A stretch of 64,000 bases of DNA. Source: Acidobacteriota bacterium (GTDB lineage: Bacteria > Acidobacteriota > Holophagae > Acanthopleuribacterales > Acanthopleuribacteraceae). Below, piece after piece: positions 49,953-64,000 of this stretch. Positions within the stretch are counted from its first letter, which is position 1. Each line of letters begins with the position of its first letter. The stretch covers positions 186,001-250,000 of the forward strand of contig JAGQSC010000050.1 of the NCBI GenBank assembly GCA_020439745.1. The letters are read 5' to 3'. A program made the position numbers and the translations under genes. Below the pieces are notes generated by a model. The model was not told the DNA's origin. It did no database searches and saw only the letters and a program-made list of their open reading frames with translations.

Positions 49953-51083
49953 TCAATTGTGTTTTAAACCGGCAGCATTCAGATCGGCCCGTAAATCAGT
50001 TGAATTCAACGCCGCGAATTCACGAAGAATTTCTTTGGAACGCTCGTCTCGCAGCCTCGGCACAACCACGTTCACCTGGACAAATTGGTCACCCACATCT
50101 TGACCACGAAGTGATGGCACCCCTTTTCCGCGAATGCGAAATTTTTGACCGGTCTGAGTACCCGGAGGGATTTTGATCAACGCATGGCCCTCCAATGTGG
50201 GTACTTCAATCTTGGCGCCCAATGCAGCTTCGGTAAATGAAATGGGTACCTGGCAATAAAGGTTCACACCTTTGCGTTCAAAGAAAGGATGTGGTTCAAC
50301 GGATGTGATGATATAGAGATCGCCAGGCGGACCCCCAAGACGTCCACCCTCCCCTTTCTTCGGCACACGAACTTTGGTGCCGTTATCAACTCCTGGTTGC
50401 AAACGCACCGACACCTTTTCTGTTTTGGGCACCAATCCAAGACCATGGCATCGATCGCAGTTGGCAAAGTCCGTGCTTCCCGTGCCTTCGCAGTGAGGAC
50501 ATGGCGCCTCAAATACCATACTGCCCTGTTGAATCCGCTGCTTACCGCGGCCATGGCAGTGGCCGCAGGTGTGACTCGCGGCTTTGCGAATACGGCCCAT
50601 GCCTTGGCAATTGTCGCAAGTCACACGCCGGTCAATGCTCAACGTGAGCGTCATGCCACGAATGGCCTCTTCAAAACCCAGTTGAACGGTATGTTGAATG
50701 TCTTGCCCACCCTGAGGGGTCCGAACGTTCGTGGTACGTTTTCGTCCACGCCCAAACAACTCGCTGAACAAATCCCCCATGTCCCCCATGGAGCCCGTTT
50801 CCGAAAAATCAAAACCACGGAAGTCAAAGCCTCCGAAATCAAATCCTCCGGAACCCCCACCGTGGGGCGTCGCTGTTCCAAAGGTATCGTAGTTTTTGCG
50901 CTTCTCGTCATCACTCAACACGTCATAAGCTTCCGAAATGGCCTTGAACCGTGACTCTGCCGCCTTGTCGCCTGGATTGACATCAGGATGGTACTTACGC
51001 GCCAAACGTCGATAGGCCTTTTTGATGTCGGCCTGAGATGCATTTCGCTTGACGCCCAACGTCTTGTAGAAATCTTCAGCCAT
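49953..51083 (-). CDS. dnaJ: Chaperone DnaJ
   Basis: 376 residues. J-domain at 1-70 with HPD (KYHPDVN), G/F-rich region (about 75-105), four CxxCxGxG zinc repeats (about 145-205: [32 protein letters not shown]), and C-terminal substrate domains. It activates DnaK ATPase. AGGATCG precedes ATG. A strong hairpin (51107-51130) lies in the 54-base gap after dnaK. grpE is missing from the operon. Confidence 0.97.
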
Positions 51084-51106
51084 GGTCGATCCTGTACGTG
51101 CCGTTA

Positions 51107-51130
51107 AGGGGCGGGACCATACCCGCCCCT
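51107..51130 (-). terminator. Hairpin between dnaK and dnaJ
   Basis: Perfect 9-bp GC-rich stem (51107-51115 with 51122-51130), 6-nt loop, no U-tract. It sits between two genes of the same operon and so is probably a stabiliser or attenuator rather than a full terminator. Confidence 0.6.
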
Positions 51131-51137
51131 AAATTGA

Positions 51138-53018
51138 TTAGTCCACGACTTCGGCGTCTATGACACCATCATCATCTGGAGCCTGACCACCTGAAGCCGC
51201 CGCTGCACCCTCAGCCTGGTTTTCCTTGTACAGAACTTCCGCCAGTTTATGAGATGCCTTCATGAGCTCGTCCGTTGCATGGTTCAGACTGGCCACATCT
51301 TCACTCTTGGCCTTCTCTTTGGCATCAGAAATCGCCGCCTCAAGTGATTTGACATCCTCGTCGGTCAACTTGCCCCGGTGCTCGGACAGAGTCTTTTCCG
51401 TTTGCCAGATCAGTGAATCAAGTTTGTTACGTGCTTCAACCAGGCTCTTGCGATCCTGATCTCGGTCGCGGTTTTCTTCAGCTTCTGACACCATGCGGTT
51501 GATCTCGTCGTCGGTTAGACCGCTGGAACCGGTAATCTGGATACTGCGTTCCTTGCCTGTACCCATATCTTTTGCTGAGACGTTCAAGATACCGTTCGCA
51601 TCGATGTCAAAAGTCACTTCAATGCGTGGTACACCCCGCGGCGCTGAAGGGATATCAACCAACGAGAACGTACCGAGAATCTTGTTGTCTCGTGCCATCG
51701 GACGTTCACCCTGGAACACCACGATGTCAACCTGTTGTTGGTTATCGGCAGCCGTCGAATAGGTCTGACTCTTCTTGGTGGGGATGGTTGTGTTGCGTTC
51801 TATCATCACGGTCGCGATGCCGCCTTCCGTTTCCACACCCAGGCTAAGCGGTGTTACGTCCAGCAGCAGCACGTCCTTAACGTCTCCCGCTAGCACGCCA
51901 CCTTGGATGGCAGCGCCAATGGCAACCACTTCATCGGGGTTCACCCCTTTGTGGGGCTCACGCTCAAAGATGGCCTTCACCTTTTCTTGAACCATCGGGA
52001 TGCGCGTAGACCCACCCACAAGGATGATCTCTTGAATCTCGCTGGCTTTTAGGCCGGCATCGCGCATGGCATTTCTGCAAGGCGCTTCCAGTCGAGCAAT
52101 AATCGGGTCAATGAGCGATTCAAACTTGGACCGTGTCAGGTTCAGGTTCAAATGCTTAGGCCCTGAGGCATCGGCTGTTATGAACGGCAATGCGATTTCG
52201 GTCGCTTGCGTGCTGGACAATTCGATCTTGGCCTTTTCCGCAGCTTCCTTCAGGCGTTGCAGGGCCATCTTATCTTGGCCCAAATCAATACCTTGGTCCT
52301 TCTTGAATTCGTCAAGGATCCATGTAATTAAGGCTTCATCAATGTTGTCACCACCCAGGTGCACATCGCCATTGGTGGATTTTACTTCCACCACTCCTTC
52401 ACCCACTTCAAGCACAGAGATGTCAAACGTACCACCACCAAAATCGAAGACGGCAATGGTCTCGTCGCTCTTCTTATCTAATCCGTAGGCCAAGGCAGCC
52501 GCCGTAGGTTCGTTGATGATTCGCTTTACTTCGAGCCCAGCGATTTTGCCGGCGTCCTTAGTTGCCTGTCGTTCCGCATCGTTGAAATACGCAGGCACCG
52601 TGATCACGGCTTCCGTGACGGTTTCACCCAAATAGGATTCAGCGGCCTGTTTCAGCTTTTGCAAAATCATGGCCGAGATTTCCGGTGGCGAATATTGCTT
52701 GCCATCCTTGGTCTGCACACGCGCATCGCCGTTGGCGCCCGCTACCACTTGATAAGGCACGCGCTTGGCCTCGGTGGCCACCTCGGCAAATTTCTTGCCC
52801 ATAAAACGCTTCACCGAATACACAGTATCTTCTGCATTGGTGATGGCTTGCCGTTTGGCTACTTGACCAACCAACCGCTCACCCGATTTGGAAAAACCAA
52901 CTACTGAAGGCGTCGTTCGCGTCCCCTCAGCGTTGTTGATGATGATGGGTTCCTTACCCTCCATGACCGCAACAACCGAGTTGGTTGTGCCCAGGTCAAT
53001 ACCAATAATCTTGCCCAT
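51138..53018 (-). CDS. dnaK: Chaperone DnaK (Hsp70)
   Basis: 626 residues. N-terminal actin-like ATPase with [34 protein letters not shown] and VGGSTRIP; the substrate domain follows at about 380; acidic C-terminus ends in [12 protein letters not shown]. Length and all motifs are normal. GGAGG lies before ATG. It is the first gene of dnaK-dnaJ-hspR-sigma, with the promoter at 53059-53087. Confidence 0.98.
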
Positions 53019-53058
53019 AACCGGACCTCCTAAAACTACGCGTCACTCCGCTCCCACA

Positions 53059-53089
53059 AAAATATTATATGAGTGAGTTGTTGTCAACT
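53059..53089 (-). promoter_or_regulatory. dnaK promoter with overlapping inverted repeat
   Basis: On the minus strand TTGACA (53087-53082), 17 bases, then TATTTT (53064-53059). An inverted repeat AGTTG-N4-CAACT (53076-53089) covers the -35 element. It is a candidate operator, though neither the HspR (HAIR) nor the CIRCE consensus is matched. Confidence 0.5.
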
Positions 53090-53113
53090 TTTTTTTATAT
53101 CAACTATATCAGA

Positions 53114-55063
53114 TCACGAACCGAGTCCGTATTGGTCGCGCAAAGCGGAAAGCTCTGTCTGGACGACCGTCCAGCGTTCCATTTGCTTGTCCAGTTCGAA
53201 CTGGATTGACTTCTTCTCATCAGATAGTTTGCGGACTTCGTCGGGTGCTGTACGCGCAAAGAAGACAGGGTCCGAGAACTGATCATCAATAGCTGCCACT
53301 CTTGACTCAAGTTCTGCGATGTTTGTCTCTAGGTTATCCACTTCTCGTTGTAAGTCCTTGGATTCACGCTGAAAGGCTTGTCGCTGATCTGCCGACGCCT
53401 TTTTTTCTCGTTTTCGATCGGAGCTCTTGGATTTAGGTGCGTCGGTTTTGTTGCCCTGATCCACCTGATAGGCCAGATGATCGACACCCACTTTTTCGAT
53501 GAATTCGTCATAAGTGCCCTCAAAAGCGTCGTAACCTGCCGGTGTCAGTTCCAAAACTCGGTTGGCGATTCGTTCGACCACGTAGCGGTTGTGACTGACT
53601 AATATCACCGTACCCTCAAAACGGCGCAGTGCTTCCACCAAGCTTTCAATGGATTCCATATCTAGGTGGTTGGTCGGTTCGTCCAGAACCAGCACATTGC
53701 CTCTCAAAAGCATCATTTTCGCAATGATCAGGCGGGCACACTCACCTCCGGACAGGGCGGCCGTGGACTTGTGTACGTCGTCTCCGGAAAACAGGACATT
53801 GCCCAAAATCCCTCGAATGGCGCCAATCGGCTCTCCGGGCCCGAATTGGTACAGCCACTCATAAGGTGTTGTGTCTTCGCGAATCTCGGCATGGTGATCT
53901 TGAGCAAAATATGTGGGGTATGTTTCGTGTCCCCATTCGACGGCGCCTTGGTCCGCCGTCAATTGATCCATCACAATCTTCAATAAGGTTGACTTCCCCA
54001 CACCATTAGGGCCGATGACCGCCCATTTATCGCCGCGGTGCACGCGCCAATTTACGTTGTTGAGCACGGGATGGGCCTCATAGGATTTGCAGATACCTGT
54101 AATCTCAAGAACTGTCTTGCCAGGAGGGCGCACGGCTTCAAACTGAATGCGCGGAAAAACGCGGGAGCTATATACGGGTTCCGATATGTCCTTTTCCATG
54201 CGTTCAATCATTTTGGCTTTGCTTTGTGCCTGACGGGCCTTGGACGCCTTGGCTTTAAATTTCGTCACGAACTGTTGCAGATCGTCAATCCGTTTTTCGG
54301 CCTTCTCTGCCTCTAGTTTTCTCAGGGCGTCATCGGCTTCTTTTGCGGCCAGAAACGCATCATAGTTGCCTTTGTAGATCTTGATGGTCTGGTAATCCAC
54401 GTCCGCAACGTGCGTGCACACGCGGTTCAAAAACGAACGATCGTGAGAGACGACAACCACAATGCCGCTCCGCTGACAAAGAAAACTCTCTAGCCATCGA
54501 ATAGAGAGGATGTCCAAGTGGTTGGTGGGTTCGTCCAAGAGCAGAACATCTGGGTTGCAAAAAAGGACCTGCGCCAAAAGCACACGTAATTTGTAACCGC
54601 CGGACAAAACGGACATGGATTCAAAGTGTTTCTCTTCAGGAATTCCCAATCCTGAGAGGATTTCGGCGATTTGTGCCTGTGCAGCATACCCGTCGTTATC
54701 GGCGATCACCATCTCCATTTCCGCAATTTTCATCGGGTCAGAATGGGGGTCATGAAGAAGCCGTTCTTTTTCAATGACCGCTTCAGCGAGTTCCTTCTTA
54801 CCAAGCATAACCACATCGGCAATCTGCCAATCCTCGTAGGCAAAGTGATCCTGGTTCATGGTGCCGATGGCTAGACCGGACGGAATATTAATATCTCCCC
54901 CGTCGGCGTATTCTTCCTGGGTCAGCATTCTCAGAAATGTCGACTTACCGGAACCGTTGGCGCCCACGATGCCATATCGTTTTCCAGGGTCCAATCTCAA
55001 GTTCACGCCTTCGAATAGAACCTGAGCGCCATAACGCTTTGAAAGATTTGAAATAGATATCAT
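53114..55063 (-). CDS. ABC-F family ATP-binding protein
   Basis: 649 residues from ATG 55063 (GAGGCGG upstream); a 15-codon longer form is less likely. Two ATPase domains in one chain, no membrane segments: Walker A at GANGSGKST and GPNGVGKST, signatures LSGGYKLRVLLA and LSGGECARLIIA, and Walker B LLLDEPTNHLD and LVLDEPTNHLD. The linker KFKAKASKARQAQSKAKM is the P-site motif. The C-terminus has a coiled coil (about 545-640). Acts on ribosomes (translation factor or antibiotic resistance), most like YbiT/Uup. Confidence 0.92.
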   Translation of the reverse strand: MISISNLSKRYGAQVLFEGVNLRLDPGKRYGIVGANGSGKSTFLRMLTQEEYADGGDINIPSGLAIGTMNQDHFAYEDWQIADVVMLGKKELAEAVIEKERLLHDPHSDPMKIAEMEMVIADNDGYAAQAQIAEILSGLGIPEEKHFESMSVLSGGYKLRVLLAQVLFCNPDVLLLDEPTNHLDILSIRWLESFLCQRSGIVVVVSHDRSFLNRVCTHVADVDYQTIKIYKGNYDAFLAAKEADDALRKLEAEKAEKRIDDLQQFVTKFKAKASKARQAQSKAKMIERMEKDISEPVYSSRVFPRIQFEAVRPPGKTVLEITGICKSYEAHPVLNNVNWRVHRGDKWAVIGPNGVGKSTLLKIVMDQLTADQGAVEWGHETYPTYFAQDHHAEIREDTTPYEWLYQFGPGEPIGAIRGILGNVLFSGDDVHKSTAALSGGECARLIIAKMMLLRGNVLVLDEPTNHLDMESIESLVEALRRFEGTVILVSHNRYVVERIANRVLELTPAGYDAFEGTYDEFIEKVGVDHLAYQVDQGNKTDAPKSKSSDRKREKKASADQRQAFQRESKDLQREVDNLETNIAELESRVAAIDDQFSDPVFFARTAPDEVRKLSDEKKSIQFELDKQMERWTVVQTELSALRDQYGLGS

Positions 55064-55130
55064 TGCCGCCTCTACTGCGCCTTTGCGCAAGGCGCGATTG
55101 TAGCGCAAACACGTCGGGTCAGTGAATCAA

Positions 55131-58100
55131 TCAGAACGTGCGGCCGTAGCGCAAATGCCAGTCTTTCGTGGCCCGAAACTCGATATCCTGGGGCAAGGTT
55201 TCCTCGACCCGATACGCCCAATCCACATGCAGGTGCCCCACAGGACTATCCCAACCGATCCCAAGGCCTGTTGTCACCGTTAAGTCATCAAGACTCAGAT
55301 CATTTGAATTTGCCCATACCCGGCCTGCGTCCACGAAACCCGACAAACTGATCCCTTGCCATCCGGTATAGTAGGTCAACTCATGGCTTCCAAAGACCAT
55401 CGCTTCGCCGCCTGCGACCGACGTTCCCGAAGGGTTTAATGGCCCCAGCGCATCCTGATGATAACCACGAACAGTCGTGGCCCCTCCAAGCGTGAATAAC
55501 AAAGGGTCCCGCTCGTCGCTGAAGGAATCAGGAATCAGGTTCTTAGGCTGATACAAGCCAAATTTGTACCGTTGCTGCCACATCCACGGACCACGGCTAA
55601 GGAACGACGTAAAAGCAGCGTTGTAACGGGTTCCATTCACCGCGATTTCACTGCCAAATGCCTGGAAGTAGTGTTCTACTCCGACCCTCATCAGGGTACC
55701 CGTACGCGGATTAGAGTTGTGATCCAAGTTTCGATAAAGCCATGAAAGATTGAGGGGCGTCAAGGAGATGGTCGATTTGGATTCGACAATTTCGGTAATG
55801 GTCTCAGGATCAATGGGGTCATTGGGATCGGATTCAAAATCGGGAATATAGAAGATCACTTCCTCATGCTGAATCACACGGCGATAGGCAGTTCCCAACG
55901 TCACTTGACTGCGTTTGGAAATGGGGTACCTGATTTCACCGGTTAGTTTGTAATTCTCGGGAAACACAAATCGCCGTTGGGATTCGATCTGAAGTGGTGG
56001 TGTGAAGTCGTCAGGATGATCGTCGCGTGTGGATTTCAACCAATCTGCCGATACATAAAAATTGAAAGGCGTTTTAAAAATTCGCCGAAACAGTGTGTCC
56101 GCATGGACACTGCGTTCGTTGGGTCCACGCTCACTGCGAAACGAAAAAGTGTTCACGCCAGACCCGAACAAGTTGTCGCGAAACTGAGCCACAATGGTAG
56201 GTTCTTCATATTCGTTTATGGCCACACCATATTCAAAATCCCACCGATTTCGTTCGTTCAAGATGATCCGAGCTCTGTGTTCATCACCTAACACACGTAC
56301 GGCATCATAGGACCCCGTTCGAATGAGCTCCTCTTGAGATTGGATGAGCGAACTTTGAGTGTAGGCTTCATGCTTAGTTTTGAAGAACCGCTGCACTTTT
56401 TCAGGGCGCACACGGTTGGTGCCTTCCAATACGATTTCTTGATAAATCGGTTCGGCGGATGTGTAGAGACCCAGGCTCACTTCCACCTCACCGTCTACCA
56501 AGTTGGGTGTCACCGACACCCGCTGGTCACGGCGACGAACCGTTTCAAGTTCATGAGTCATCGTCTTTAGTAGGGCGTAATTAAAAGGTGCCCCGACCCA
56601 TTTTGTCATCAGTTCGGCGGGTAACGGATCCGAATGGGGTTCCGGGACAATACGGGCTACTTCGGCTTTTCGACCCAGTCGAATTGGAACGACAAACATG
56701 CGCGGGTTAACAAAGGAACCTCTATCAATAGAGGGACTTACATATCCCTGGGCTGCCAACCTTGCCCGCAATACCGCTTCAGAATGGTGGGGCGCAACCA
56801 GGTATTCCGACAAAAACGTGCGTGCCTTTTCTTTCTTGGCAACGAGGGAATGCAGCTGTTGATCCGCATCGCCAAAATGTATCTCCACATCACTAACCAG
56901 CGGGCCCTTGTCGACGAGGATGGTCCACTGATGATCGTTTTGACGGACATGTGGCTGGATCTCAAGGTAGCCTTGACGTAAACCCACCTGTTTGATCCAG
57001 GTGTTGAGGCGAATCTCAGCAGCATCACCACTCTGTTTGATCAACCGCAACGCTTCAAGATGTTGTCGTTCCGTCAGTTCGAAACCCTGAATTTCGAAAC
57101 TTGTTTGCTTGCCGGTGTCTACATCGATAGACAGCTGTCCATTTTCAAAAGCTATTTGCAGAGACGGTGTCAAGTAACCTTCACGCATCAAAGCCTGTTC
57201 AATCTTGAGTCGCGACCTCCTGACCGTCGATGAAGAGAACAGTTGACCAGCCTTAATCGCGGCCCACTTTTTGATCCTCTTGGACTCGTATCCAGTGATC
57301 ACGATTTTCTTGATACGCACGGGCTCAACATCTGAAGCCCCAAATCGCTGTCGCCGCCTGAAATCAAACGTGGCTTCGTTATTTTCATAAACTGCCGATA
57401 CGTAACTGTCCCAATAAGGGCCAATCCCCAATTCCACCCGTTGTTCAGAGGGACGGTCGATGGGCACCGCAATACGACTGATAAGTTTGTCTCGAATCGG
57501 CTGGGTAAACACCACTGAGAACGAGCGATCAAACAGCTGTTCACTTTGTTCACTTTCCAGGCTAACCGCGGACGACACTTTGCCGAGCACGTAACTTGCC
57601 AATAACGTAGCTAATCCATCCGTAGAGCCGCTATCTTCCAAGTCACTGATGTAACCCACGATCTGAATGGGCTGGCGCTCACTAAAATCGTCTCCGTATT
57701 CCAAAAAGACCTGCAAGTAGGGCTCTCCGGGCCGATTGGCATGAAACTGGACTTGGCTCTCTTTGAAGACATAAGTTTCGCGCCCGATGCGTATTTCACT
57801 GCCTTCGTTGATGTAGAGCGTTCCAGAGGCTAAATAGGGTTGCGCGAGGTTGCCCATGACTAGAATGTCCGGACTCTCCAAAGTCACAAAGCCGAGTTCG
57901 TGTTCAATCAGAAGCGGGGTGGGCGTTTGCGTCACTAATTGAACATCTACTTGCGAAAGGAGCGGGTCGGGAAACGCAATGGATTCGGTTTCCGTAAGCA
58001 TGGCGTTGACAAAGGTCTTTAGTGTATCCGAGGGCGTATAGTATCCATCGGTAATTTTCACCTCGCCACGGAGTACGGGCGTTGAGCCAGTGTGATGCTG

Positions 58101-61100
58101 CAAGCTAATCGCCAAATCTGTTTGACCCAGAAAATCGCCGTAAGTTAGGGGTACAGCTTCACCAAAAGCACTAATTTGCCAATCATCCAATGTACCCACA
58201 CCCGCAATGCCCACCAAACTACCATTCACTTCAACCTTGGAATCAGTGAGTCTAAAGTTGTCCCGTCGATGCTCTAGAGTGATCAGAGCATTCTTAATCT
58301 CCATCCAGGGTTCCGGGTGGTAAACAGTTCCAGCCAGTTGTCTGAATTCTGCCGACAGGGTGTCAAATTCCGATAACTTGGGCACGGCTGCGTCGATCCA
58401 AAACAACGCATCACCCAATAGGTCAGGGACAAAGGCTTTAAGCTGATCGACACCCAACACAGATCGAATATGCAAGCGTCCTTCCTGGGTTGCGAAACTG
58501 ATGGGCAGATCGTCGTACATTAGTAGATTGTCATTGGTGTACCATCCATTGTCGTAGGCCAAACCAAGCGTCCGAGTACTGACCCTTGATTGATCGTAGG
58601 TCGCTTCCAGTTGATCGACCCAAAGTGTTGCCTTTGGAGTTTCAAACGAAAAATCACTCTCAAGATCGAATTCGCTGAGCAAAACAGACATAGCCAGAGG
58701 AAGCTGATTCTCGATCAAACGGTCGTTGAGTGCCGTTGCATCCACCAACGTCAACCGACAATGGCAACTGATGTCTGACCCGGCACTGAGCGTGGGTAAA
58801 TCGGCAATGGGCCTAAGCCCCACGTTGCCATCACACTCCAGGTCCATACCAGCAATACGCCCTTCCACTCGATCAATGATCAAGCCATCGGCCCAAGAAA
58901 ATTCCAATGTCCGAAAAGCAGCATCCCAGCCGTCCCATTGACCATCCAGCTGTGTCAAAGCCACACAGATCTTAGGTGACACATCGGGGTCCCAAATCAA
59001 TGAAACGGTCCCACTTGCTGTGGTAAGGTCAACCGCCTCAGGCACTTGATTCCCAAGAGCCTTTCGCAGTCGGTACCAGTCCTGAACGGCAAACTCCAAT
59101 TGCCCCACGCCAGATTCGGCGTCGCCCGTCCATTCAGAGCTAAACACAGTAAGTCCGGCAATCTCGAAAGGTACATCCGTGACAACACCCCACCATCGGT
59201 CCTTGGTTATTTTCAGGGGGAGATCGAGTTTGGAGGGTATGACGATTTCTCGATCACCTACGGCCATTCGTTGAGGTGGCGCCAGAATACGCAGGTCGAG
59301 TTGTTTGGGGTTGGCATTGAAATCGAACCGGGCTAGGGGTAATCGCACCAATTGGTCACTGACCACCACATCTTGGTGACGACTGATCAAGGTACCTGTT
59401 GCTTGCCACTGATCGAAATCTACAAATCTACAGCGAAGATTGACGTCAATACCGTTCCAGGCAGCACTGAGCCAATCGGCATCCAATTCGCTGTCTGCAA
59501 ATGTGAATCCTGTATGAAGATCCACGCCGCTACCCAAGAGTTCCGTGGATACACCAAACGTTCCTCCGACGACCAGATTGTCCAAGGCACCCAAGGCGCG
59601 TACCGAACCCGAAACCAGAAACGGCTGTTGTTCGTAGACCAAGCTGAAGTCAGTCAACTCAAAACAGCTTTCTCTCAGCGTTTGCGTTTGACCATCCAGT
59701 AAAACCGTTCCTTCAATGCCGCGGTCGCTGTGGGTTCTAATATCCAGCGCGGTTAAGGGACCGTGCGCGGAAAGGTCTATGTTTCCCAATAGCTGGTCAA
59801 CCACCGACAAGCCATCAACCTGTCCTCGCACTTCATCCAAATTCCATTGTGTCCCTACAAGACTGATTGCACCCATGGCGGTTGCCTTTTCGAATGCGAT
59901 CTTGTGATCCGCAAGGGCCAGCCACGGTTCGTCATCTCGGGCTTCCACGTAGAACACGGCTTGCCCATGTTGATCCGCCCATGCCGTCACTGCGAGGTCA
60001 CGCATGGACCATGTCAGGTTGCCATCGACCCCCGCCTCCGGGGACCAATGACCATTTGCCTCGAAATCAGCCGCGCCAGTTCCCCAGGCGGACCAAAGAA
60101 CGTCAATACCTTCACCAATCATCAACCCACCATGAAGATTGAGGTCATCGAAGCCCACGGGGAATTGTCCGAGTAGCGCAGTCTTCGCTTGCCCACTAAA
60201 CGACCCCGACCATTCATCGCCGTCCGCGCCAAACACCCCAACCAAGCGCACATCTTCACCGAATGCCAATGCGAAGTCGGTATGCCATCGCCACATGCGC
60301 AAATCACCTCGAGCATTCACGTCCCAACGCTGGTCCTGTACCATAGCGACAGTCTGGGCAGTCCAGTGCGCCGTGTCATTTTCAATCACGGCATTGCACG
60401 TCACAGGTTCATCGTAACCTGACAGGTCAGACCCGATTTGGGATGACACCTGTAACGTCGCGATTGACTGACGCAGATCCATGGATCCTGCAACTTCAAT
60501 ATGAGACGAATCTGTGGAGACCGTCGCCTCCAGGTTATCGAATCTGATGAAGTCTTGTGTGTCAGCGACCACGTGAAGCACAGCAGATCGCACAATTTGA
60601 TCGCCCGCCCGTAATTGCTCGGTTGTCAGATCCAAGGAAATACGACGATCAAGACGCTGTATTCGCACGTCCCCTGCGTCAAAGTCAGCTTGAAGGACCT
60701 GACCCCGGGCACTTAAAGCCAGGTCTTCGACCACAAACCGGTCCAGTCGAATGTGGGGCCATGAGGGTGTACTGGTTTCCGACCCGTCGCCCTCAAAAAG
60801 GGCGTCGTCCAGTTCAATCAGACCAGAACGCAACACGACCTCATCCAAATCAATCGCGCCGCGTAGCATGCCGTTTCCTGCATTGACGCTGACGAAATCG
60901 GCCTCTACTGACCATCCATTTCCGCTTACGTGTAACCCTTGAATCCTAACTTGTAGCCGAAACAGATTGAGGTCAAGACGGTCGGCATCAAATTTGATGC
61001 CCCATCGCTGCAGGCGACTCTTGAGTTGCCCCAATAACGGGCGCTCGACGACCTGTGTCTGAGGTAGCAGAACGAACAGCAACAAGAGCAGCGCGGTGAG

Positions 61101-61124
61101 TTTGAGGACCCACCGTCGTTTCAT
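55131..61124 (-). CDS. TamB-Omp85 fusion: periplasm-spanning translocation/assembly protein
   Basis: 1997 residues in one frame. Order: membrane anchor about 6-22 (LKLTALLLLLFVLLP); TamB-like beta-rich body about 25-1000; TamB C-terminal (DUF490) domain about 1000-1265 (ITDGYYTPSDTL, GTLYINEGSEIRIG, FTQPIRDKLISR); five POTRA-like modules about 1266-1620, beginning at RIKKIVITGYES; Omp85 16-stranded barrel about 1620-1997 with the L6 motif VRGY at about 1887 and an aromatic C-terminus (GRTF). The first 1265 residues equal full-length TamB (E. coli 1259) and the rest equals an Omp85 protein. ATG follows the TPR gene stop directly (TAAATG) and has GGAGG upstream. Likely role: outer-membrane protein insertion or lipid transfer between membranes. 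POTRA number is judged by eye. Confidence 0.9.
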   Translation of the reverse strand: MKRRWVLKLTALLLLLFVLLPQTQVVERPLLGQLKSRLQRWGIKFDADRLDLNLFRLQVRIQGLHVSGNGWSVEADFVSVNAGNGMLRGAIDLDEVVLRSGLIELDDALFEGDGSETSTPSWPHIRLDRFVVEDLALSARGQVLQADFDAGDVRIQRLDRRISLDLTTEQLRAGDQIVRSAVLHVVADTQDFIRFDNLEATVSTDSSHIEVAGSMDLRQSIATLQVSSQIGSDLSGYDEPVTCNAVIENDTAHWTAQTVAMVQDQRWDVNARGDLRMWRWHTDFALAFGEDVRLVGVFGADGDEWSGSFSGQAKTALLGQFPVGFDDLNLHGGLMIGEGIDVLWSAWGTGAADFEANGHWSPEAGVDGNLTWSMRDLAVTAWADQHGQAVFYVEARDDEPWLALADHKIAFEKATAMGAISLVGTQWNLDEVRGQVDGLSVVDQLLGNIDLSAHGPLTALDIRTHSDRGIEGTVLLDGQTQTLRESCFELTDFSLVYEQQPFLVSGSVRALGALDNLVVGGTFGVSTELLGSGVDLHTGFTFADSELDADWLSAAWNGIDVNLRCRFVDFDQWQATGTLISRHQDVVVSDQLVRLPLARFDFNANPKQLDLRILAPPQRMAVGDREIVIPSKLDLPLKITKDRWWGVVTDVPFEIAGLTVFSSEWTGDAESGVGQLEFAVQDWYRLRKALGNQVPEAVDLTTASGTVSLIWDPDVSPKICVALTQLDGQWDGWDAAFRTLEFSWADGLIIDRVEGRIAGMDLECDGNVGLRPIADLPTLSAGSDISCHCRLTLVDATALNDRLIENQLPLAMSVLLSEFDLESDFSFETPKATLWVDQLEATYDQSRVSTRTLGLAYDNGWYTNDNLLMYDDLPISFATQEGRLHIRSVLGVDQLKAFVPDLLGDALFWIDAAVPKLSEFDTLSAEFRQLAGTVYHPEPWMEIKNALITLEHRRDNFRLTDSKVEVNGSLVGIAGVGTLDDWQISAFGEAVPLTYGDFLGQTDLAISLQHHTGSTPVLRGEVKITDGYYTPSDTLKTFVNAMLTETESIAFPDPLLSQVDVQLVTQTPTPLLIEHELGFVTLESPDILVMGNLAQPYLASGTLYINEGSEIRIGRETYVFKESQVQFHANRPGEPYLQVFLEYGDDFSERQPIQIVGYISDLEDSGSTDGLATLLASYVLGKVSSAVSLESEQSEQLFDRSFSVVFTQPIRDKLISRIAVPIDRPSEQRVELGIGPYWDSYVSAVYENNEATFDFRRRQRFGASDVEPVRIKKIVITGYESKRIKKWAAIKAGQLFSSSTVRRSRLKIEQALMREGYLTPSLQIAFENGQLSIDVDTGKQTSFEIQGFELTERQHLEALRLIKQSGDAAEIRLNTWIKQVGLRQGYLEIQPHVRQNDHQWTILVDKGPLVSDVEIHFGDADQQLHSLVAKKEKARTFLSEYLVAPHHSEAVLRARLAAQGYVSPSIDRGSFVNPRMFVVPIRLGRKAEVARIVPEPHSDPLPAELMTKWVGAPFNYALLKTMTHELETVRRRDQRVSVTPNLVDGEVEVSLGLYTSAEPIYQEIVLEGTNRVRPEKVQRFFKTKHEAYTQSSLIQSQEELIRTGSYDAVRVLGDEHRARIILNERNRWDFEYGVAINEYEEPTIVAQFRDNLFGSGVNTFSFRSERGPNERSVHADTLFRRIFKTPFNFYVSADWLKSTRDDHPDDFTPPLQIESQRRFVFPENYKLTGEIRYPISKRSQVTLGTAYRRVIQHEEVIFYIPDFESDPNDPIDPETITEIVESKSTISLTPLNLSWLYRNLDHNSNPRTGTLMRVGVEHYFQAFGSEIAVNGTRYNAAFTSFLSRGPWMWQQRYKFGLYQPKNLIPDSFSDERDPLLFTLGGATTVRGYHQDALGPLNPSGTSVAGGEAMVFGSHELTYYTGWQGISLSGFVDAGRVWANSNDLSLDDLTVTTGLGIGWDSPVGHLHVDWAYRVEETLPQDIEFRATKDWHLRYGRTF

Positions 61125-61712
61125 TTACTGCCCTCCGGCCCTTTTCAAATAATCGCGAACGTACGACGTACAGCCATTGTTCCCAGGTACAACTTCAAGG
61201 TACGCAGTCCAATAAGTGGCCACTTCGGTTACCTGGTCCTTGGCCCGATACAAGTCACCCAACAAGAATAATGTTTCGGCGTGGCGGTTGTTTAAGGCGT
61301 AGGCCCGTTTCAACTGCACCAAAGCGTCATCAGACTTGCGTTCGAGAACAAGTGCGTATCCTAAAAGATAACGCGCCAAATAGTCGTCTTCTTTGCCAAG
61401 TCGCGCTTCGAGCAGTTTCTTGGCTTCGGGGACCTTGCGTTCGAATAAAGCGACTTGAGCTTCCAGCAAGGTGGATGTACCCGCTTTTTGAGCCGCAAAC
61501 TGTTTGGCAGTGCTCTGTTGTTTCATGTAACACAGGGTAGAAACCAACAGCAGTTGGGCCTCTTGATTGCCTGGATCCGTAGCCAAGTAACCTTCAAGTA
61601 CCGATTTTGCCGCGCCGTAGTTCTTATCGCAGATGTTACTGCGGGCCTCCATAAGCGGATTCTGTGCCCAAATCAGCCCCGAAAAACAACACAATCCGAT
61701 CAACATACGCAT
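61125..61712 (-). CDS. Secreted TPR protein
   Basis: 195 residues from ATG 61712 (AAAGGAG upstream); the 12-codon longer form is less likely. Signal peptide (MRMLIGLCCFSGLIWAQ), then about five TPR-like helical pairs (for example AAKSVLEGYLATDPGN, ARYLLGYALVLERKSDDAL and AETLFLLGDLYRAKDQ). The TAA stop is directly followed by the ATG of the TamB-Omp85 gene. Likely a periplasmic partner or chaperone of that protein, analogous to BamD-type TPR lipoproteins, though no lipobox is present. Function inferred from context only. Confidence 0.8.
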   Translation of the reverse strand: MRMLIGLCCFSGLIWAQNPLMEARSNICDKNYGAAKSVLEGYLATDPGNQEAQLLLVSTLCYMKQQSTAKQFAAQKAGTSTLLEAQVALFERKVPEAKKLLEARLGKEDDYLARYLLGYALVLERKSDDALVQLKRAYALNNRHAETLFLLGDLYRAKDQVTEVATYWTAYLEVVPGNNGCTSYVRDYLKRAGGQ

Positions 61713-61791
61713 GGTTATGTCTCCTTTATGCGACAAATAATGGCTCATTGTCGCTTTATCTCAATTGAAGGCAACCAGAATGCCAAGTCCC

Positions 61792-64000
61792 TCATTCATC
61801 AACACCCCAATCGACGGTAGTCCAGTAAACCTGGGTCGCAGCATCGTTTTGGAACACGACATCGTCCGCCTTGATATTTGCGGGTAACTCAATGAACACC
61901 AGAGTGTGGGTCCAATCTGTCAATTGGCGGAAAAACTCGCTGATTTCTTGTCGTTCTTCACCCACATCAGCGGACATACCCAAACCGGCTGTTCGGAACT
62001 GTAGTTGTTCTGCAAATGAACGTCGCGCAGCGGCCTCTTTCTCGCGCTGATCCAGCTCGTTTTGCATGCGTTTCTTATCGCCCATAGAAATGCGGAAACC
62101 CACTTGTGTGTTCCGATCTTCCTGAAAACTATCACGAGTCGCATCGCGATCGGGTTGCATGGAATCCATATCCAGTGCCCGGTCTGCAATCGACTTCGCG
62201 GTGGCAGTAGTAGGCGCATCCCGTGGAAACTCCAAGTGATACACATGCAAACCGGTTTGACGCAATTCAACCAACATGGCTTCCAATTGCGTCAGATCCT
62301 CAGTCAAGTGATCTGTAATCAAAATCAGGTGGTGAGGCATGGTGGTGTGATATTCAAGGTGGGTCACCTCCTCCAACAACACGCTGAAATCCAAATTGGT
62401 GCTCAAACCATGAGTGGGCGTAACCGCCTTGAGTGCACTCAACCACTCAGCTCTGTTGGATGTTGGCGCCAGCGCTAAGCGGGTCCGTGGCCCACCCGAA
62501 CGCACGATATAGGTCAAGTCACCCGGTTTGAGTTCACTCTTAAACCATTGGACCAATTCCTCTCTCAAGAATGGCCAGATACCGCGATTCACGACATCTT
62601 CATGAATCGCGATGCCCCAAATCTGGTTCAATTCATGAATCGAGGTGTGCTTCAAATCAGCGAGTTGTTGCCCCTGATAAAATGGATCTGGAGGTACAGA
62701 GGCCGAGCCGTCCACATGTCGTGCGGCCGCCACCAAGTTCGGGTTTCGAACGCTGATCTCAGTAAACACATCTGTGCGACTTAACACGGTACTTTGAGTG
62801 GACCAGGTGCCGTCCTTAAGAAACCGCACGTCAACTTGCGTCGTAGGTCCCCAATCAAAAGGCGGCCAGGGAATTTCGCCCGTACTTGTGGACAGAAAGG
62901 GATGACCACCGATACATACATACAACTCCGGTCCCGCTGCCTTCAGAGTGAGTGTCTCCAATTCCAGGTAGTTGTCGGTTTGATTGGTGACGACTTTTGA
63001 TGAATCTTGGATCGCCACAGTCCAATCTGCCGGAAAGGTTCGAAACCCTCGAAGACCGTGGGCGTCAGGTAGGGTTTGCGCCATCACGCGGAAAGGCCCC
63101 TGCTGTGGCGGCAATTCAAACATGAACCAATCCCCTGCGCGATTGATATAGCTGAGCGGACGTGGGATATCATCTTCCTTAATCATGAGTGCTTCCGGCG
63201 AAAGGTGCGCTGCATGAACAAGCACCATAGCCAACCGACTGGGGTCATAGGGTTGATCCCAGCGATATCGAAATCCACCGATCATGAGTTCGCGCTTGTC
63301 AGGCTTGATCAGCCCTTCAGGAGCCCACTGTTGAACGATAATAGGTGTGCCCACTCTCGGCAATGTAGGAGGGGCAACATATATGGAACTGCTGGTTTTC
63401 AGACCACTGGTCAGGAAGCCAGAAAATATCTTCAGATCGGCATTAAAGTGACCCGGTGGCATATGCACTTCAAACACCACCGCGTCGTCCTTTTGTAAAT
63501 TTACAGCGGTCGCATCATGCCTCGTCTCCACCTCGCCTACCCCTTTGTCCAAGGTGATCAGGAGTTCCAAAACAACATCTTCTCTGCCTTTTGATTGAAC
63601 AGCTTCACGAAACGAAGGCGTCAACGCAACTGCCACCCGCAACAGCTCACCGCGGGGATCTGGGTCCAAGAGATACGTGAGAATTCGGGTGTCGTACCAA
63701 GTGATTTGATCGGGGATCCGGGTTCTGCCAAAGGGACGCATGTCGAAACTGTAGAGGATCTGGGGATGGAGGATCATTCTGTTTTTTAGTCGGTCCCATT
63801 CGGTAACGCTTCGTTCGGTCAAAGTCACTCGATTGCGACCAATGGGGATGAAATGAAACTCATAGTCTGCGAAATGCCATTCCGAGGGCAGCAAACTGTT
63901 GGAGGGATTGGTTGTCGTCGATTCAGGCTCACCGAGCACTTCCACGATGTAATCACGAATGTCTCCGTAGGTTCGCTCACAGAAAAACTGGGGCAAAAAC
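61792..64000 (-). CDS. GWxTD/VWFA-related acidobacterial protein, 5' end outside window
   Basis: The frame runs off the right edge; 734 residues are visible, and a TTG at 63996 is only the first possible start. The first residues (YGDIRDYIVEVLGEPE, then EWHFADYEFHF) look like the C-terminal half of a GWxTD domain. A beta-rich middle of about 400 residues follows, then a VWFA-related domain (about 490-600: LTYIVRSGGPRTRL, HHLILITDHLTED). C-terminal charged coil with QNELDQREKEAAARR. This architecture is a hallmark of Acidobacteriota. Probably exported; the signal is off the edge. Confidence 0.8.
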   Translation of the reverse strand, partial: FLPQFFCERTYGDIRDYIVEVLGEPESTTTNPSNSLLPSEWHFADYEFHFIPIGRNRVTLTERSVTEWDRLKNRMILHPQILYSFDMRPFGRTRIPDQITWYDTRILTYLLDPDPRGELLRVAVALTPSFREAVQSKGREDVVLELLITLDKGVGEVETRHDATAVNLQKDDAVVFEVHMPPGHFNADLKIFSGFLTSGLKTSSSIYVAPPTLPRVGTPIIVQQWAPEGLIKPDKRELMIGGFRYRWDQPYDPSRLAMVLVHAAHLSPEALMIKEDDIPRPLSYINRAGDWFMFELPPQQGPFRVMAQTLPDAHGLRGFRTFPADWTVAIQDSSKVVTNQTDNYLELETLTLKAAGPELYVCIGGHPFLSTSTGEIPWPPFDWGPTTQVDVRFLKDGTWSTQSTVLSRTDVFTEISVRNPNLVAAARHVDGSASVPPDPFYQGQQLADLKHTSIHELNQIWGIAIHEDVVNRGIWPFLREELVQWFKSELKPGDLTYIVRSGGPRTRLALAPTSNRAEWLSALKAVTPTHGLSTNLDFSVLLEEVTHLEYHTTMPHHLILITDHLTEDLTQLEAMLVELRQTGLHVYHLEFPRDAPTTATAKSIADRALDMDSMQPDRDATRDSFQEDRNTQVGFRISMGDKKRMQNELDQREKEAAARRSFAEQLQFRTAGLGMSADVGEERQEISEFFRQLTDWTHTLVFIELPANIKADDVVFQNDAATQVYWTTVDWGVDE

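Follow-up and report, generated by a model that had tools for sequence, protein, structure and literature searches.

Our analysis of a 64,000-nucleotide (nt) stretch of DNA from an Acidobacteriota bacterium (contig JAGQSC010000050.1, positions 186,001 to 250,000; here referred to as the window) revealed a gene, the TamB–Omp85 fusion, that joins in one frame the modules of the translocation and assembly module (TAM), which in Escherichia coli consists of two proteins, TamA and TamB. Judged from sequence, an N-terminal anchor, a TamB-like body, the whole TamB C-terminal domain with its terminal strand, a linker, five POTRA domains and an Omp85 barrel are all encoded in a single conserved frame. 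We consider it likely that the TAM is made here as a single polypeptide that would act as a lipid-conduit bridge from the inner to the outer membrane. The features of the gene are as follows (coordinates are those of the window and residues those of the fusion protein).

55131..61124, minus strand (61124→55131): TamB–Omp85 fusion gene, 1997 codons, single uninterrupted frame
61059..61124, minus strand: N-terminal signal anchor, residues 1-22, without an obvious signal-peptidase site
58254..60992, minus strand: TamB-like beta body with a presumed hydrophobic groove, residues ~45-957 (AlphaFold2, Foldseek)
57342..58253, minus strand: TamB C-terminal domain, residues 958-1261 (hidden Markov model, hhalign)
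57342..57368, minus strand: TamB terminal strand FDFRRRQRF, internal, residues 1253-1261 (motif comparison)
57309..57341, minus strand: junction linker, residues 1262-1272 (hydropathy; the next predicted strand starts at residue 1273)
56253..57308, minus strand: five POTRA domains, residues ~1273-1624 (Pfam POTRA, AlphaFold2)
55134..56243, minus strand: Omp85 beta-barrel, residues ~1628-1997 (Pfam Omp85, Foldseek)

The fusion frame is intact and conserved

A preliminary description of the window, made from the sequence alone, had reported a single open frame of 1997 residues at 55131-61124, and this was borne out exactly, on the minus strand; the plus strand of the same region is riddled with stops. 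The initiating ATG is preceded by GGAGGG and is abutted by the stop codon of an upstream TPR gene (GGAGGGCAGTAAATG; TAAATG). The TamB/POTRA boundary, placed beforehand near residue 1266 (about 57320), proved correct to within a few residues, and the predicted N-terminal anchor was corroborated by hydropathy (15-amino-acid Kyte-Doolittle maximum of 2.84) and by a helix at residues 2-22 of the AlphaFold2 model. Sequence and profile matches, predicted structures and comparisons between genomes now back the proposed order of anchor, TamB, POTRA domains and barrel in one chain.

Full-length fusion frames of ~2000–2117 codons were intact in all seven genomes of the window's family, including G003, which is assembled as a single 11.8-Mb contig, and their products shared 23-45% identity with the window protein over the alignment. 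This conservation of the frame in 7 of 7 genomes shows that the fusion is more than chance. Separate tamB and omp85 genes often lie side by side in this phylum (35 of the 80 loci described below), as would be needed if two such genes had been joined by an assembly or frameshift artifact. Such an origin is nevertheless extremely improbable, as the same fusion recurs at this level of divergence throughout the family, occurs in G003 and Mor1 (CP011806), both of them single-contig genomes, and is present in at least 25 Acidobacteriota families. Assembly error as the cause of the fusion was therefore ruled out by the intact family frames, the single-contig genomes and the phylum-wide occurrence.

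The N-terminal part is TamB-like and the C-terminal part an Omp85 protein

A hidden Markov model of the TamB region in other fusions of the phylum, namely those whose TamB is recognized by Pfam itself, matched residues 958-1221 of the window protein (E value of 2.6e-15). In addition, hhalign aligned the profile of the window's family to a profile combining E. coli TamB and eight separate TamBs over 295 columns (98.7%, E value of 4.7e-16), and this alignment extended to the terminal F of E. coli TamB. The significance was gained by adding the separate TamBs, since the family profile, when aligned with the E. coli TamB sequence alone, fell short of significance (probability of 1.8); despite this low value, the EG…DPYL-type signature stood in register. 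By these profile comparisons, the C-terminal domain that the preliminary description had recognized, and on which Pfam is silent, can be regarded as homologous to that of true TamBs. The AlphaFold2 model of residues 1–1200 (7 sequences) consisted of an N-terminal helix followed by nearly all-β structure, and with this model Foldseek retrieved the LPD-3 bridge-like lipid transfer complex (2.3e-8), ApoB, and TamB itself (9xdd_B, probability of 1.00; 5vtg, probability of 1.00 and target TM of 0.70).

The C-terminal half was modeled with greater clarity. For residues 940–1997 (44 sequences), AlphaFold2 gave a mean predicted local distance difference test (pLDDT) score of 82, and by reading the secondary structure we counted five beta-alpha-alpha-beta-beta POTRA units (pLDDT mostly 75-94) and about 16 barrel strands. 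Thus, modeling of the two halves separately, as the preliminary description had proposed, yielded clear POTRA domains and a clear barrel, whereas the expected TamB groove, at a pLDDT of 68, came out as consistent with the N-terminal model but short of proof. Pfam matched POTRA at residues 1269-1336 (E value of 2.8e-10) and Omp85 at residues 1651-1978 (E value of 1.7e-27), the VRGY motif lies at residues 1885-1888, and the chain ends in WHLRYGRTF with F1997 as its last residue. The POTRA-like repeats, the Omp85 barrel, the VRGY motif and the terminal aromatic residue noted beforehand were thereby all recovered, and the protein possesses the barrel, the VRG[FY] loop and the POTRA domains of the Omp85 superfamily. 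Foldseek matched the C-terminal half to BamA (3.8e-33) and TamA (1.7e-26). Two more specific labels were rejected: a true TamA (54.8 bits for NF047950 against a cut-off of 625, and five POTRA domains rather than three) and a BamA duplicate (99 bits for TIGR03303 against a cut-off of 297). Because the scores fell short of both NCBIfam cut-offs and TamA has three POTRA domains, we named this part Omp85; of the original assignment of this half as TamA/BamA, membership in Omp85 was retained and the precise identity as TamA was not.

The TamB terminal strand is internal in the fusion

In the 2026 cryo-electron microscopy structures of the E. coli complex, the last TamB strand pairs with TamA β1, the final TamB strands fold within the TamA barrel, the TamB body touches TamA POTRA 1–3, and the TamB hairpin loop LP5 lies beside TamA extracellular loop 1 (PMC12800296). 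By our reading of the LP5 placement, the TamB C-terminus would exit the barrel at its periplasmic face. Among the separate TamBs of Acidobacteriota, the C-terminus is formed by a motif such as FDFKLRRRF* in 33 of 35 proteins (1.3 expected from shuffles), a count that is descriptive because the pattern was written after viewing these C-termini; an earlier strict hydrophobic β-signal pattern had matched only 1 of the 35 and was replaced. The test of the motif is its occurrence at the junction of the fusions, where it was found in 27 of 55 proteins (4.1 expected), the FDFRRRQRF of the window included. The TamB part of the window protein accordingly has a terminal beta-signal strand, though an internal one, which lies ~11 residues before POTRA1. 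No signal peptide was found at the junction, the maximum hydropathy across residues 1240-1300 being 0.39. Three further TamBs from the same class (L165, L166 and L167; family code f2), which are encoded without an adjoining omp85 gene, end in SGEIR-H/Y-TW-S/T-PK without the terminal F motif, and their docking may differ again.

Since the terminal strand now stands ~11 residues before POTRA1, docking must either differ from that of E. coli or be intramolecular. About 11 residues leading into POTRA1 would span at most roughly 40 Å, and a one-chain hybrid barrel would be possible only if the five-POTRA arm curled back to the barrel rim; otherwise this docking mode would be lost. The preliminary description had held that the fusion sets the TamB C-terminus just where docking occurs. 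The contact between the TamB body and the POTRA domains agrees with this claim, but the position of the C-terminal strand within the barrel does not, so the claim holds in part (PMC12800296). By comparison with E. coli, the fused order would thus constrain docking rather than simply reproduce it, and whether barrel β1 pairs with the internal TamB strand is the sharpest question that the fusion protein raises.

The junction also bears on the integrity of the chain. If one precursor were cut between TamB and POTRA1, an ordinary two-protein TAM with an enforced 1:1 stoichiometry would result; the junction is indeed a short, variable and polar stretch, and because the phylum, and even a single genome (L086 and L110), contains split forms alongside fused ones, a two-chain form is workable. 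However, the ~55 fusion junctions show no obvious motif for cleavage that is conserved among them, the window linker of only ~11 residues is flanked by two folded strands, and it would be odd if one frame kept across many families were always undone. We therefore regard cleavage as improbable; one uncut chain would then reside in both membranes.

Fusions are widespread in Acidobacteriota

When 119 Acidobacteriota genomes were searched with the Pfam TamB model, many of the matches fell within frames of 2000–2450 codons. All 20 of the long TamB frames that we checked contained TamB and POTRA, and 19 also contained Omp85 in the same frame; at L069 (4461-5357 and 4792-10905) the barrel lies in the next frame owing to an apparent frameshift. 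A GTDB-wide scan, confined to one sequence pattern and to 80 loci, gave 34 fused loci, 35 adjacent split pairs and 11 loci with Omp85 only, and the fused loci came from Aminicenantes, Bryobacterales, Terriglobia, Vicinamibacterales, Polarisedimenticola, Thermoanaerobaculia and Mor1. At least 49 of 247 Acidobacteriota genomes had one stop-free match running from TamB through the barrel end; together with four genomes identified by Pfam (G049, G067, G079 and G126) and the window genome, the fusion is present in at least 54 of 247 genomes, about a fifth, and spans at least 25 of the 73 family codes represented. The search for homologues in Acidobacteriota that the preliminary description had proposed was thus strongly positive.

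The fused and the separate form may occur side by side. Genome G144 carries a fused (L086) and a split (L110) locus on the same contig, JAFGTD010000011, and fused and separate TamB-Omp85 paralogues were also seen together in G090, G203, G224 and G243; this coexistence suggests a division of labor. PF04357 matches only the fused copy in the near-complete Mor1 genome and in Polarisedimenticola, and Holophagaceae-like genomes of the window's class have tamB without a neighboring omp85. Fusions of the Acidobacteriota type were also found on contigs of metagenome-assembled genomes labeled Cyanobacteria and Euryarchaeota (L090 and L109), the bins of which are probably mislabeled or contaminated. A plasmid scan with the C-terminal half of the fusion gave no record in which one place covered 80% of the query, and BamA-type proteins were among the matches listed.

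To place the two forms, an unrooted tree of the concatenated TamB C-terminus and barrel (91 rows) was built by a quick method. The fused and split labels required three changes on this tree, all forced by starred branches, versus 27.9 when shuffled. Two small fused groups (L061, and L067 with L070) sit inside the split clade, which means that the change occurred more than once; the window's family forms a long branch of unsure placement. The fusion would have arisen most simply if an adjacent tamB-omp85 pair had lost the stop codon of tamB and the signal peptide of omp85.

Proposed mechanism

We propose that the chain is exported through Sec while its anchor stays in the inner membrane, and that the β-barrel assembly machinery (BAM), of which a separate BamA is present, would fold the barrel at the C-terminal end into the outer membrane, with the result that one chain would span the envelope. 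The TamB beta-groove would then form a continuous phospholipid conduit from the inner to the outer membrane, with delivery at the POTRA/barrel end; in E. coli, the groove binds phospholipids, and TamAB conducts them (PMC12800296). The terminal strand might pair intramolecularly with barrel β1, the POTRA arm being curled back, or the pairing might have been abandoned, and the barrel may also aid the insertion of some outer-membrane proteins. From homology, we infer both lipid transport and a physical span of the two membranes.

A tethered TamB scaffold might instead serve a TamA-like insertase, so that the fusion would be mainly a protein-insertion machine with no lipid conduit. The TAM was discovered as an assembly factor for autotransporters and ushers (PMC11014939, PMC12800296), and an Omp85 barrel with VRGY is an insertase fold. 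Yet most of the chain is a TamB-like beta body akin to bridge-like lipid transfer proteins, and E. coli BAM can substitute for the TAM in Ag43 insertion but not in phospholipid transport (PMC12800296); we consider a pure insertase slightly less probable still than cleavage.

Besides the alternative of cleavage, several points weigh against a one-chain lipid bridge. Pfam PF04357 (TamB) matched neither the window protein nor anything else in the window genome; with a loose threshold it matched 4 of the 7 family members (best 7.1e-6). As PF04357 misses the window TamB, however, its silence means little for this family, and the profile of E. coli TamB and the eight separate TamBs was likewise uninformative as an absence test. 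The model of residues 1-1200 is of moderate confidence only (pLDDT of 68, predicted template modeling score of 0.37), and Foldseek matches among long beta proteins are partly generic. The substrate, whether lipids, proteins or a combination of them, is extrapolated from E. coli, and the direction of change, fusion or fission, is left unrooted by the tree.

Somewhat more doubtful than probable is our wider proposal that Acidobacteriota harbor a widespread class of one-chain TAMs without hybrid-barrel docking through a free C-terminus and that, where no second TamB/AsmA-like protein is detected, as here, such a TAM would be essential and the principal or sole anterograde phospholipid bridge.

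Genomic context

One neighbor accompanies the fusion throughout the family.

61125..61748, minus strand: TPR protein with an N-terminal signal-like hydrophobic stretch (Pfam TPR), probable operon partner

The TPR gene lies directly upstream of the fusion in all seven family genomes (gaps of 0, 0, 187, 3, −4, 3 and 3 nt), TPR genes also precede the fusions in L083, L085 and L105, and the TPR protein is likely a periplasmic accessory factor. The gene is short in L023 (5075-5488), which, like the frameshift of L069, apparently reflects sequencing error or recent decay. Other neighbors are common only within the genus. Upstream of the TPR gene, 61792-63999 encodes a protein of ~800 residues with sequence hints of GWxTD-like and VWFA-like parts; it also adjoins the TPR gene in the sister species L022, the copy of which matched no Pfam family. 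The fusion is followed at 49953-55108 by dnaJ, dnaK and an ABC-F ATPase gene, an order that in L022 is continued by a MerR/HspR-like regulator and an RpoD-like sigma factor and that is lost outside the genus. No Rfam match was found in the window.

Elsewhere in the window genome, a separate 810-codon Omp85 frame beside lpxD/fabZ/lpxA-like genes represents the canonical BamA, and two MCE (MlaD) proteins are encoded. No Pfam match to AsmA or YhdP was found in this genome, a weak negative because Pfam also misses the window TamB. By eye, two further loci on contig C2 of this genome (L161 and L162) look like patatin-Omp85 (PlpD type) and WD40/TolB-like-Omp85 proteins, which would make four Omp85 kinds in one cell.

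Comparison with known systems

A search of the open-access literature, with subscription journals and preprints outside its scope, found no earlier description of a TamB-Omp85 fusion. The 2014 survey of ten Omp85 subfamilies has no TamB-Omp85 class, does not contain DUF490 and names TamB once, as the separate partner of TamA (PMC4104836); a paper on TAM evolution reports neighboring BamA–TamB genes in Acidobacteria without the words fusion or fused (PMC4494059), which are not mentioned in a 2024 TAM review either (PMC11014939). How TamB passes lipids to the outer membrane, and whether the strand inside the TamA barrel is mechanistic, are open questions in the field. A natural fusion sets a 1:1 stoichiometry and independently supports the TamB–Omp85 partnership and, as its terminal strand has been moved from the free C-terminus, it allows docking by proximity to be told apart from docking by the C-terminal strand. 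The fusion further offers a single purifiable chain for structural work and would be a trans-envelope tether, the length of which has to fit the periplasmic width.

The E. coli TamA-TamB complex (9xdc/9xdd, PMC12800296) shares with the fusion the TamB anchor, the C-terminal domain with its terminal strand, and an Omp85 barrel with POTRA domains, and its beta-taco body and envelope-spanning arrangement are predicted for the fusion as well. It differs in being made of two proteins, with a three-POTRA TamA and a free TamB terminal strand that pairs with TamA beta-1, whereas the window protein is one chain with five POTRA domains and an internal terminal strand directly followed by POTRA1. The separate tamB-omp85 pairs of Acidobacteriota (Heinz et al. 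2015, PMC4494059) have the same adjoining modules, the same terminal TamB motif and a place in the same tree, but they have a stop codon, a separate Omp85 with its own N-terminus, sometimes a reversed gene order, and a POTRA arm of ~550 residues versus ~410 in the fusions. An extra domain N-terminal to the Omp85 barrel is also known from WD40-Omp85 (PMC4104836) and PlpD-type patatin-Omp85 proteins (PMC11116518). The closest precedent for a one-chain inner-to-outer bridge is the elongated MlaD of Veillonella parvula (PMC10665443), for which one chain, anchored in the inner membrane and ending in a beta-barrel at its C-terminus, is likewise proposed to span from the inner to the outer membrane in phospholipid traffic; unlike the fusion, it is an MCE-domain hexamer with an unrelated barrel and a proposed retrograde direction, and contains neither TamB nor Omp85.

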